Shown: one piece after another, positions 17,164 to 22,023 of the stretch
Layout of the letters: every line of letters begins with the position of its first letter
Position numbering within the stretch: the stretch's first letter is position 1
Assembly: GCF_030064065.1 (NCBI RefSeq)
Contig: NZ_CP125946.1
Coordinates: 868,001-932,000 of the forward strand
Reading direction: 5' to 3'
DNA length: 64,000 nt
From: Rothia sp. SD9660Na
Lineage (GTDB): Bacteria > Actinomycetota > Actinomycetes > Actinomycetales > Micrococcaceae
Notes under the pieces: generated by a model
What the model was told of the DNA's origin: nothing
Seen by the model: only the letters and a program-made list of their open reading frames with translations
Databases searched by the model: none
Translations under genes and position numbers: made by a program

Positions 17164-17236
17164 GCGCCTCTAGCTCAATTGGCAGAGCAATTGACTCTTA
17201 ATCAATGGGTTCTGGGTTCGAGTCCCAGGGGGCGCA
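17164..17236 (+). tRNA. tRNA-Lys (anticodon CTT), copy 1
   Basis: A 73-nt tRNA with acceptor GCGCCTC/GGGGCGC. The anticodon stem ATTGA/TCAAT encloses CTCTTAA, so the anticodon is CTT and reads AAG. T-arm CTGGG/CCCAG, discriminator A, no encoded CCA. Identical to copy 2. Confidence 0.95.
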
Positions 17237-17247
17237 CAGTGTGAGAG

Positions 17248-17422: not shown

Positions 17423-17495
17423 GCGCCTCTAGCTCAATTGGCAGAGCAATTGACTCTTAATCAATGGGTTCTGGGTTCGAGTCCCAGGGGGCGCA
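17423..17495 (+). tRNA. tRNA-Lys (anticodon CTT), copy 2
   Basis: Identical over all 73 nt to the copy at 17164, with the same anticodon CTT and its own promoter and terminator. Confidence 0.95.
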
Positions 17496-17501
17496 CAGTC
17501 T

Positions 17502-17617: not shown

Positions 17618-18070
17618 CTAGAGCTCCCAGGCCTCAATGATGACGCGCTTAAAATCTTCAATATCAAGTGCCTGGTCGAGCACGCCACTACCTTCTGTTG
17701 TCTGGACGGTCATATGGGGCTCAAAGGTGAGAGAAAAGGAGGTGCCGTTCGTGGATTCTAGCCCAAAGGAAAACTCTGAAAGGCTAAAGGTGCGGGCAGC
17801 ATTTGTGTTGTCGATAGAAGTGGGGGTTCCGGTGCCGCGAACTTCGGGCAAGGAGAGTGGGGCGATGACTGCCTCTCGCGGGGTGTCCCTGTAGCCGATG
17901 AGGAAGTGGCTCTGATTTTCTTCCTGATGAGATGCCAAATCGGGATTGCGGTAGATAGATGAACCTGTAGCAAAAACCAGATTGTAGGCCCCATAGTTAA
18001 TAATCTGACTATCAAAGACAGTGTGCAGGGCCTTGGCAATTTCACTACTGGTGAGCTGGGGTTCAGTCAT
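17618..18070 (-). CDS. Hypothetical protein, 150 aa
   Basis: I do not recognise this family. The protein is soluble, acidic, and rich in Ser, Thr and Glu, with no signal peptide or membrane segment. The pattern of alternating hydrophobic strands (YNLVFATG, HFLIGYRDTP, SLTFEPHMTVQT) suggests a mainly beta domain of about 130 residues. A -10-like TAGACT stands exactly 6 nt before the ATG with no ribosome site, which supports both this start and a real leaderless gene. It sits alone between the tRNA-Lys repeat and the ilv leader region, divergent from the latter. Confidence 0.6.
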   Translation of the reverse strand: MTEPQLTSSEIAKALHTVFDSQIINYGAYNLVFATGSSIYRNPDLASHQEENQSHFLIGYRDTPREAVIAPLSLPEVRGTGTPTSIDNTNAARTFSLSEFSFGLESTNGTSFSLTFEPHMTVQTTEGSGVLDQALDIEDFKRVIIEAWEL

Positions 18071-18245
18071 ACCATCAGTCTACGTGCTATAACTGAAGTA
18101 TTAGCCAGAAAAGTGCTACTGATTGCCTAAAAGTCTTTAAATGACGATGTGCAGCTTTGTATCCTTTGACCAGGCTAGACCGCTTTAGCTCTTCCCCACC
18201 AGTGTCTTGAGGGGTGAACTAGCTGTGTCATATTCTAAGACCGGT

Positions 18246-18275
18246 TTGACCGATGTGCCCTTGAGCACCAAGAAT
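18246..18275 (+). promoter_or_regulatory. Promoter of the ilvBN attenuator leader
   Basis: TTGACC (18246-18251) and AAGAAT (18270-18275) are 18 bp apart. The expected transcription start coincides with the ATG of the leader peptide at 18283, so the leader itself would be translated from a leaderless RNA. Confidence 0.55.
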
Positions 18276-18282
18276 AAGGGGT

Positions 18283-18348
18283 ATGACAACACGCCAGCAG
18301 TCACAGATTATTCTTGTGGTGCGACTCGTGAACGAGTGCGCAGCATAA
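18283..18348 (+). CDS. ilv operon leader peptide (21 aa, attenuation)
   Basis: A 21-codon open frame too short for standard gene finding. It reads MTTRQQSQ, then IILVVRLV, then NECAA and a TAA stop. Seven of the eight codons in the middle block specify Ile, Leu or Val, exactly the end products of the downstream operon. Ribosome stalling there when charged branched-chain tRNAs are scarce would favour the alternative hairpin and read-through into ilvB. The stop lies 28 nt before the terminator stem. Leader peptides of this type are known upstream of ilv operons in enteric bacteria and corynebacteria. The peptide needs no function of its own. Confidence 0.85.
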   Translation: MTTRQQSQIILVVRLVNECAA

Positions 18349-18407
18349 GTCTTTGATATGTCTTACGGCGTGCGCACCCTTCGCTCAACCAGGCGGAGGG
18401 TTTTTTT
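18336..18407 (+). promoter_or_regulatory. Transcription attenuator of ilvBN
   Basis: The terminator is CCCTTCGC (18377-18384) against GCGGAGGG (18393-18400), followed by seven T residues. A competing or pausing hairpin, GTGCGC (18336-18341) with GCGCAC (18372-18377), begins inside the end of the leader-peptide frame and shares one base with the terminator stem. A small ACTCGT/ACGAGT hairpin lies within the peptide coding region. The arrangement matches classical ribosome-mediated attenuation. The exact antiterminator pairing needs folding analysis. Confidence 0.8.
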
Positions 18408-18501
18408 CTAGGTTTATCCGCAACCCGGCACTACCTACACCCAACGGGCGCATCCACCGCTCACACACAAGATCATCTTCAGACCATCGCGAGGATCACC
18501 A

Positions 18502-20340
18502 ATGACAGCGGGAACTCCCATCAACCCTGCAGATCTAGCTAAAAACCTGGGCAACCGTAGCAGTTTAGAAACCTCACAGGTAGAGCGCATGACCGGCTCT
18601 CAAGCCATCGTCCGCTCCCTCGAAGAACTGGGTGTTACCGATATCTTCGGCCTGCCCGGCGGCGCGATTCTGCCAACTTACGACCCCCTCTTTGACTCTG
18701 AAAAGCTCAACCATATTCTGGTGCGCCACGAGCAGGGGGCAGGGCACGCCGCAGAAGGCTATGCTATCGCCAGCGGTAAGGTCGGCGTAGCTATTGCCAC
18801 CTCGGGCCCCGGTGCCACCAACCTGCTCACCGCCATTGCGGACGCCAACATGGACTCTGTGCCCCTTGTCTGTATCACCGGCCAGGTCTCCTCAAAGGTC
18901 ATCGGCACCGATGCTTTCCAGGAAGCCGACATCGTAGGCATGACCATGCCCATCGCCAAGCACTCCTTTATGGTGCGCGATGCCCAGGAGATACCCCGCT
19001 GCATCGCCACCGCCTTCAAAATTGCCGCAACCGGCCGCCCCGGCCCTGTCCTTGTTGATATCACCAAGGACGCCCAGCAGGGAATGATGGACTTCTCCTG
19101 GCCGCCCGCTAACACCGACCCCCGCGGCTACAACCCTGTAACCCGCGGCCACTCCAAGCAGATTCGCGAAGCGGCTAAGCTCATTACCGAGTCCCAGCGC
19201 CCCGTGCTCTACGTGGGGGGCGGCATCGTGCGCGCAGAGGCCTCAGATGAACTGCTTAAGCTGGCGAAGACCATTGGCGCGCCTGTGGTCACCACCCTCA
19301 CCGCCCGCGGTGCCTACCCCGACTCTGATCCCCAGAACCTGGGTATGCCCGGTATGCACGGCACTGTCCCGGCAGTGACCGCCATGCAAAAATCCGACCT
19401 GCTCATTGCCCTGGGGGCTCGTTTTGACGACCGCGTCACCGGTGTTCTCTCAGAATTCGCTCCGCACGCCAAGGTTATTCACGTCGATGTAGACCCCGCA
19501 GAAATCTCAAAGATTCGTATTGCCGACGTACCCATCGTGGGTGATTTGCGCTATGTGCTGCCTGAACTCAACGAGATTCTCGAAGGCGAGTTTGCCTCTG
19601 ACCTACCCGATCTTTCGGACTGGTGGAAGCTGGTCAACCGGTTCAAGGAAACCTTCCCGCTGGGCTACACCAAGACTGACGACGGCTTAGGCTCTCCCCA
19701 GTACGTCATCGAAAAGCTGAGCGAGCTCACCGGCCCTGACGCCTACTACGTCACCGGTGTGGGTCAGCACCAGATGTGGGCAGCCCAGTTTATCCAGAGC
19801 GAAAACCCCCGCCACTTCATCAATTCCGCTGGCCTGGGTACCATGGGCTTCTCCGTCCCTGCCGCTATGGGCGTCAAGGTTGCCTTCCCCGACTCAGTCG
19901 TGTGGTCTATTGACGGTGATGGCTGCTTCCAGATGACCAACCAGGAACTGGCCACCTGCGTGCAGAACAACATCCCCATCAAGGTTGCCATTATCAACAA
20001 CTCGTCCTTGGGTATGGTGCGCCAGTGGCAGAACCTCTTCTATGATGGCCGCTACTCCAACACCCACCTCAAGACCGGCATAGGTACCGAGCGCGTGCCT
20101 GACTTCGTCAAGCTGGCTGAAGCCTATGGCTGTGCCGCCTTGCGCTGCGAGAGTGATGCAGATGTAGAAGAAACTATCAAGCAGGCCCTGGCGATCAACG
20201 ACCGCCCCGTGGTCGTAGACTTCAACGTCAGCCCCGACGCCCTAGTCTGGCCCATGGTTCCCGCCGGCGTATCGAACGACCAGATTCAGATTGCTAAAGA
20301 TATCTCACCCTCCTGGGGCGAAGATGAGGAGATGCTATGA
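18502..20340 (+). CDS. ilvB: Acetolactate synthase, large (catalytic) subunit
   Basis: A 612-residue thiamine-diphosphate enzyme that condenses two pyruvates to acetolactate, or pyruvate with 2-oxobutyrate to acetohydroxybutyrate, the first common step to valine, leucine and isoleucine. The N-terminal [14 protein letters not shown] with the following [14 protein letters not shown] contains the conserved glutamate that activates ThDP. The FAD-binding middle domain and a C-terminal [14 protein letters not shown] (ThDP/Mg binding) follow. GAGGA precedes the ATG. The last 4 bp overlap ilvN (ATGA), coupling the two subunits. Expression is expected to be set by the attenuator 95 bp upstream. Confidence 0.97.
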
Positions 20341-20846
20341 GCCGCCACACCCTCTCGGTTCTTGTAGAAGATAAGCCCGGCGTGCTGGCCAGAGTCTCAG
20401 GCCTCTTTGCCCGCCGCATGTTCAACATTGACTCCCTAGCCGTGGGCCCCACCGAGATTCCGGGTATCTCCCGCATCACCGTGGTGGTCGACGCCGAGGG
20501 CGTGCTGCTTGAACAGGTTACCAAACAGCTCAACAAACTGATTCACGTGCTCAAGATCGTGGAACTGCCCGATGAACAGTCGGCCCAACGCGACCACATT
20601 CTCATTAAGGTCAAGGCAGACACGGCAGCCCGCATCCAGGTCACCCAGGCCGCCGACCTTTTCCGTGCCAAGATTGTGGACGTCTCTACCGAGTCCGTCA
20701 TTATCGAGGCCACCGGTTCTGCCAACAAAATCAACGCCCTGCTCGAAGTGTTAGAACCCTTCGGCGTGCGTGAGATTGTTCGCGCCGGGACTATCGGGCT
20801 CTCCCGCGGCCCCCGGTCAATGAGCGAGAAGGCCCTGCGCGGCTAG
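20337..20846 (+). CDS. ilvN: Acetolactate synthase, small (regulatory) subunit
   Basis: A 169-residue regulatory subunit. The N-terminal ACT domain, [28 protein letters not shown], binds valine and confers feedback inhibition; the C-terminal half ends [20 protein letters not shown]. It is required for full activity of IlvB. ATG overlaps the ilvB stop. The length is standard. A gap of 148 bp follows before ilvC; it holds a possible separate promoter region and the motif discussed under findings. Confidence 0.96.

Positions 20847-20952: not shown

Positions 20953-22023
<1,071 letters not shown>

Follow-up and report, generated by a model that had tools for sequence, protein, structure and literature searches.

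Leader peptides rich in branched-chain amino acids (BCAA) and followed by terminators have been described in front of ilvB in Corynebacterium, Mycobacterium and Streptomyces (Seliverstov 2005, PMC1262725). In C. glutamicum, transcription of ilvBNC starts one nucleotide from the start codon of the leader (PMC11857589, describing Morbach 2000); the replacement of three Val by Ala abolished the valine response, and the change of ATG to AGG reduced expression by 80% (PMC11857589). Leader peptides of this organism also appear in RNA-seq studies (PMC4046766, PMC3890552), and an ilvB-II motif has been described for Corynebacterium (PMC10272879). By RNA-seq, the transcripts of the C. diphtheriae ilvB leader (PMC5784534) and of S. 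lividans ilvL and several other leaders (PMC8079986) are leaderless. The ilvB1 attenuator of M. tuberculosis comprises a BCAA uORF (LVVI), an antiterminator and an intrinsic terminator, and a reporter in which LVVI was replaced by AAAA is unresponsive (PMC13236596); cysteine uORFs are described for mycobacteria as well (PMC4633059). On the other hand, codon changes in the S. coelicolor ilvB leader left regulation unaffected, as reported in PMC1262725. The class may therefore not be uniform. In 2020, Canestrari reportedly described leaderless cysteine attenuators of mycobacteria.

The locus studied here is very probably a further, well-conserved example of the leaderless ilv leader peptides that are already known. 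The original prediction presented stalling on a leaderless message as a twist on the textbook system; the novelty implied by this wording fails, since such leaders had already been published for C. glutamicum, C. diphtheriae and S. lividans. The E. coli ilvGMEDA and trp attenuators likewise combine a control-codon leader peptide with competing hairpins; their leader peptides have a 5' UTR and a Shine-Dalgarno sequence, unlike what is predicted for the leader examined here.

The window, i.e., the whole 64,000-nucleotide stretch of Rothia sp. SD9660Na DNA that was analysed, belongs to a genome of 2.39 Mb in 4 contigs. On its forward strand lie ilvB (acetolactate synthase large subunit, 18502-20340), ilvN (small subunit, 20337-20846) and ilvC (ketol-acid reductoisomerase, 20995-22023), each an NCBIfam equivalog match above the cut-off; the start of ilvC was set at ATG 20995, within an ORF listed from TTG 20959, and a phosphoglycerate dehydrogenase gene comes after it. 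ilvB starts at ATG 18502 and has its own Shine-Dalgarno sequence, AGGA. Among the named loci in the matches listed, those of Arthrobacter and Paenarthrobacter are closest to the window IlvB (71% identity). The unannotated leader peptide ORF (ilvL, 18283-18348, forward strand) sits 5' of ilvB in this ilvBNC operon and is rich in codons for the products of the regulated pathway. Its 21 sense codons encode MTTRQQSQIILVVRLVNECAA and are followed by a TAA stop; codons 9-16 (18307-18330) read Ile-Ile-Leu-Val-Val-Arg-Leu-Val (IILVVRLV), so that Ile, Leu or Val occupies seven of eight positions, and both the sequence and its conservation mark them as the control codons. Such a run of seven in eight is reached by only 3 of the 1,119 short ORFs in the window (8-40 aa, both strands), and when the 250 nt preceding ilvB are shuffled by mononucleotide, 4 of 5,000 shuffles contain an ORF of this kind. 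The sequence thus confirms the predicted 21-codon frame with its Ile/Leu/Val block and shows that its chance occurrence would be rare. An in-frame upstream extension is ruled out, as ATG 18253 meets a TGA at 18262.

Compared with C. glutamicum ilvL/ilvBNC (leader MTIIRLVVVTARRLP; ilvB-II motif), the window locus shares the operon, a BCAA-rich leader ORF without a ribosome binding site, and three hairpins with a terminator; transcription starts one nucleotide from the start codon there and is predicted to start at the ATG here (PMC11857589, PMC10272879). The peptide has 21 residues here and 15 there, the leader ATG is 219 nt from ilvB here and 292 bp there, and the hairpin sequences differ. The leaderless transcripts of C. 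diphtheriae and S. lividans ilvL were observed by RNA-seq, whereas that of the window is predicted, and the peptides differ (PMC5784534, PMC8079986). The BCAA uORF, antiterminator and intrinsic terminator are shared with M. tuberculosis ilvB1 (PMC13236596).

The leader RNA (18283-18407) folds at -51.9 kcal/mol (z = -5.1), and none of 200 shuffles is equally stable. By folding, the anti-antiterminator or pause hairpin 1:2 (18313-18349, forward strand, as are all features of the leader) pairs 18313-18328 with 18333-18349 through 15 pairs at -20.6 kcal/mol. The antiterminator 2:3 (18336-18377), identified by folding, the swap test and the alignment given below, pairs 18336-18349 with 18362-18377 and can be extended by 18328-18332 with 18380-18384. 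The terminator hairpin 3:4 (18376-18401) pairs 18376-18385 with 18392-18401 through 10 pairs at -15.9 kcal/mol and runs into seven T residues (18401-18407), the first of which is the last base of the stem. This intrinsic terminator, lying between the leader ORF and the first gene, is the only terminator-like site found in 18100-18520 (stem 18376-18401), compared to 0.4 expected in shuffles. Hairpins and then a terminator behind the leader ORF had been predicted, and all three were found; the GC-rich terminator with seven T residues is indeed there, but its placement "just before ilvB" was loose, because it ends 94 nt before ATG 18502. Across the genus, an automatic search located a terminator hairpin downstream of the leader ORF in 33 of 35 genomes; in the other two, L111 (wrong hairpin picked) and L119 (none found, only three T residues), the terminator was set by hand. 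The frame of L106, as read, continues past the terminator hairpin.

Most probably, the leader is a ribosome-mediated transcription attenuator of ilvBNC acting on a leaderless leader-peptide message. The ORF, the promoter match, the hairpins and their conservation and covariation were computed; the transcription start, translation, stalling and readthrough are what we infer from them. RNA polymerase would start at A18283, so that the AUG forms the 5' end, and a 70S ribosome would load there without a Shine-Dalgarno sequence. When charged Ile, Leu and Val tRNAs are available, the ribosome would reach the UAA (18346-18348) and cover segment 2 (18336-18349); the terminator (18376-18401) would then form, and the RNA would end in the U run. 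With uncharged tRNA, the ribosome would stall at about codons 11-15, covering hairpin 1:2 in its 5' half and leaving segment 2 free to pair with 18362-18377 and on into the 5' arm of the terminator before its 3' arm exists, resulting in polymerase readthrough. If no translation occurs, hairpin 1:2 would form and the terminator would win. In this way, the ribosome very probably turns on the Ile/Leu/Val synthesis genes when these amino acids run short. As far as the sequence tells, the BCAA ORF, the hairpins, the terminator and their conservation in the genus support the original prediction of a classical attenuator of ilvBN.

ilvB is present in each of the 35 genus genomes, among them that of the window, and a BCAA-rich ORF found by BCAA content alone precedes it in 33 of them. 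The same is true of all 23 further family loci, which were taken from the best-scoring 30 of 119 genomes with a match (the other 7 are genus members already counted), and of 35 of 57 named actinomycete loci. The latter set (L008-L062, L065, L067) was drawn from 80 loci, 23 more distant ones, including L063 (an actinobacterial MAG), being omitted; within it, L040 and L062 have no ilvB motif of the kind used for placing, and L047 has only 128 nt of upstream sequence. Within the genus the leader peptides have strongly diverged (e.g., MKQHRIEAVEILLVIVP, MAQHNFVVLSDVRVSLIIAGRAGRRA and MTQTQQFTSILVVILS). All 32 listed loci nevertheless have a T run at a distance of 90-104 nt from the BCAA core, the cores being hand-picked clade by clade. 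The conservation of the Ile/Leu/Val codons and hairpins, on the absence of which the original prediction was to be abandoned, holds in the genus.

Ahead of the leader ORF lie a -35 element TTGACC (18246-18251), which reads TTGACN in most of the genus, and a -10 element AAGAAT (18270-18275) after a spacer of 18; both match the consensus, and the -10 element ends 7 nt before the leader ATG, a conserved spacing. TTGACC-18-AAGAAT belongs to the two promoter-like sites that occur in 18100-18520, a stretch for which shuffles predict 0.3. The promoter and terminator consensus matches are modest by themselves and owe their weight to conservation. When the promoter was allowed any position in the 140 nt around the leader start, 29 of 35 genomes and 45 of 1,750 shuffles had their best one ending 6-8 nt ahead of the start codon; here, the start codons had been chosen by us with the sequence in view, and that of L105 was shifted to its second ATG because of the promoter. 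We therefore also report a search in which any ATG or GTG start was allowed, with equal freedom for the shuffles, and a locus was counted if its promoter at 6-8 nt was matched by at most 10 of 200 shuffles. By this measure, 30 of 33 genus loci (pooled shuffles, 78 of 6,600), 20 of the 23 loci from other genera of the family (from the best 30 of 119; shuffles, 252 of 4,600) and 33 of the 35 named actinomycete loci with a leader ORF (shuffles, 147 of 7,000) carry the promoter; the three family loci that fail have TTGCTC. The table of gaps from 0 to 30 is not an independent test, because the promoter score itself determined which start was taken, and the counts describe conservation and not separate events, since the genomes are related. 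ATG and GTG are swapped between start codons while the promoter spacing is kept.

The antiterminator was assessed by exchanging arms between leaders, for which, as for the uninterrupted-helix test, 28 distinct leaders of the 35 were used. The leaders' own arms sum to -477.7 kcal/mol, compared to a permuted mean of -389.6 (sd 14.2), and none of 5,000 swaps was as good; across the genus, the arms vary between species while their complementarity is retained. Judged singly against shuffles at the 5% level, 14 of 28 leaders stand out by duplex energy and 9 of 28 by the length of their longest uninterrupted helix; the window leader passes both tests (0 of 200 and 13 of 500 shuffles, respectively), and L100, L105, L108 and L112 clearly fail both. 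Segment 2 starts within the stop codon in 10 of 28 leaders, e.g., UAGGGCGC with GCGCCCU. Leaders beyond the window clade often show a plainer antiterminator: in L101, L104 and L107 it joins AGGGCGC, located at the UAG stop, to the terminator-arm sequence GCGCCCU; the partners are AGGGUG and CACCCU in L102, UCGCGCGG and CCGCGCGA in L115 and L120, and GGGGUCCGUG and CACGGACCCC in L119.

In the window clade (alignment of 11 distinct sequences), 90.7% of the cells of 2:3 are paired, a value reached by 10 of 500 shuffles and by none of the slid controls (at most 65.9%); three pairs are changed on both sides (53 of 500 shuffles), and the covariation score is reached by 27 of 500. For 1:2, 93.3% of the cells are paired (30 of 500 shuffles; slid controls at most 55.2%), and one pair is changed on both sides. 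For 3:4, 98.2% are paired, no pair is changed on both sides and each of the 500 shuffles equals this result; the clade varies too little for covariation of the terminator to appear. The antiterminator and terminator of this clade share only 2 nt of uninterrupted helix. With the bases to 18327 covered and the 3' arm of the terminator not yet made, the extended 2:3 of the window reaches -23.6 kcal/mol and occupies 8 of the 12 terminator-arm positions (26 of the 35 genomes are listed under this condition). Folding was also computed at equilibrium with the ribosome footprint removed for each stalled codon; the terminator of the window stays at 0.91 or above in every stalled state, and in only 8 of 35 genomes (L097, L098, L099, L104, L106, L109, L119 and L121) does any stalled codon bring the terminator below 0.6. 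The competition between antiterminator and terminator is the weakest link of the proposed switch, as equilibrium favours the terminator and, in the window clade, 2:3 and 3:4 overlap little without interruption.

This weak link would be expected if the terminator were constitutive or Rho-assisted and the BCAA codons acted without a true antiterminator, e.g., through coupling of polymerase and ribosome, and the ineffective codon changes in S. coelicolor (PMC1262725) point in the same direction. However, the E. coli ilvGMEDA and trp leaders keep their terminators at 0.83-0.95 in the same calculation; equilibrium folding is therefore non-discriminating, and attenuation must be judged by the order of folding. 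Hairpin 2:3 is moreover supported across the genus by the swap test and the pair changes, and the last control codon and the terminator stem are separated by 45 nt, a distance that, given the size of a ribosome footprint, a stalled ribosome would not cover. We regard an attenuator without an antiterminator as unlikely. A riboswitch, a T-box or the terminator of an upstream gene, with the ORF arising by chance, would agree with a structured RNA and with the two tRNA-Lys genes upstream on the same strand, but it is scarcely credible: none of the 4227 families of Rfam release 15 matches the leader at the gathering threshold, by which a T-box, riboswitch or other Rfam leader was rejected, and the ORF and its BCAA content persist where the leader sequence has diverged. 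The terminator of an upstream gene was rejected as well, since the nearest long frame upstream (17618-18070) lies on the other strand and points away, and conservation of a BCAA ORF would then be unexpected.

A different doubt concerns the 5' end only: the attenuator could be unchanged and its ORF translated from a longer mRNA that carries a 5' UTR and begins at a promoter lying farther upstream. An AAGGGG precedes the ATG at a distance of 1 nt, and the free search preferred another site in six of the 35 genomes (L093, L097, L098, L099, L104 and L119); yet five of these six also carry TTGACC or TTGACT with NANNNT at 6-7 nt, L119 being the one without a good site. The Shine-Dalgarno energy at the leader is weak, -2.3 kcal/mol in the window with a mean of -1.97 over 35 genomes, compared to a mean of -5.93 at ilvB; energies of -5 or lower occur at 3 of 35 leader starts and at 35 of 35 ilvB starts, where the best among several in-frame starts was taken for ilvB. 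The spacing remains at 6-8 nt although leaders differ in how long they are, in sequence and in whether they begin with ATG or GTG, and the mapped transcripts of related leaders in C. diphtheriae (PMC5784534) and S. lividans (PMC8079986) are leaderless. A leadered transcript is accordingly quite improbable, more so than the lack of an antiterminator. The conserved spacing from promoter to start argues for a leader message that is very probably leaderless, with its transcription start predicted at the leader ATG, and together with the weak Shine-Dalgarno sequence it supports the original placement of the start on this codon.

What is new is the window locus itself, the wide spread of the promoter-to-start spacing (kept in 33 of the 35 loci from named actinomycetes that have a leader ORF), and the weak point formed by the small antiterminator/terminator overlap in the window clade and the equilibrium that favours the terminator. 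The genus and family of the window are hereby added to a switch for which most work has been done on Corynebacterium, Streptomyces and Mycobacterium. A literature search, with most subscription journals outside its reach and hence weak as evidence of absence, found no Rothia paper on such leaders and no Arthrobacter paper combining ilvB with a leader peptide. In total, 91 leader loci were gathered (some nearly identical, two doubtful), most of which keep the promoter-to-start spacing while the peptide and hairpins change, and it is how widely this placement of the start codon is kept that is of more interest. We are inclined, with reservation, to regard a transcription start at the start codon as a design of the ilvB attenuator that much of Actinomycetota has conserved and that is probably ancestral: selection would hold the 6-8 nt and let the peptide, the start codon and the hairpins drift, since a 70S ribosome that loads at the 5' end would time translation relative to the polymerase, and the design would have been lost with the attenuator in the sampled Microbacteriaceae. 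Whether a 70S ribosome on a bare 5' start codon couples to polymerase fast enough for attenuation becomes a testable question.

In 14 loci that we take to be Microbacteriaceae (L012, L014-L018, L022, L027, L036, L037, L048, L052, L058 and L065), no convincing leaderless BCAA leader was seen before ilvB; the BCAA leader is absent in 13 of them, and L018 has an ORF with no good promoter. Two of the three Bifidobacterium loci (L057, L059, L061) have no BCAA leader, and the ORF of L061 has no good promoter. The attenuator may have been lost in these Microbacteriaceae and Bifidobacterium loci. Within the genus, L111 and L119 have collinear leaders that keep the position and a terminator-like hairpin and have few BCAA codons; L111 keeps the promoter spacing, and L119, with no good promoter there, has a 10-bp antiterminator match. 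Both are possibly decaying or retuned attenuators.

Upstream of the operon and on its strand lie two tRNA-Lys(CTT) genes (17164-17237 and 17423-17496) with equal scores, 185 nt apart. A divergent reading frame of 150 residues (17618-18070, reverse strand) adjoins the operon and has no NCBIfam match. Inside the leader ORF, a second sigma-70-like site, ATGACA-17-GATTAT, spans 18283-18311; owing to such a second site, the internal GTG ties with the ATG in L001 and L088-L093 (both 9.8), and judging from its sequence, the site could give rise to a transcript that begins close to the GTG codons 12-13.
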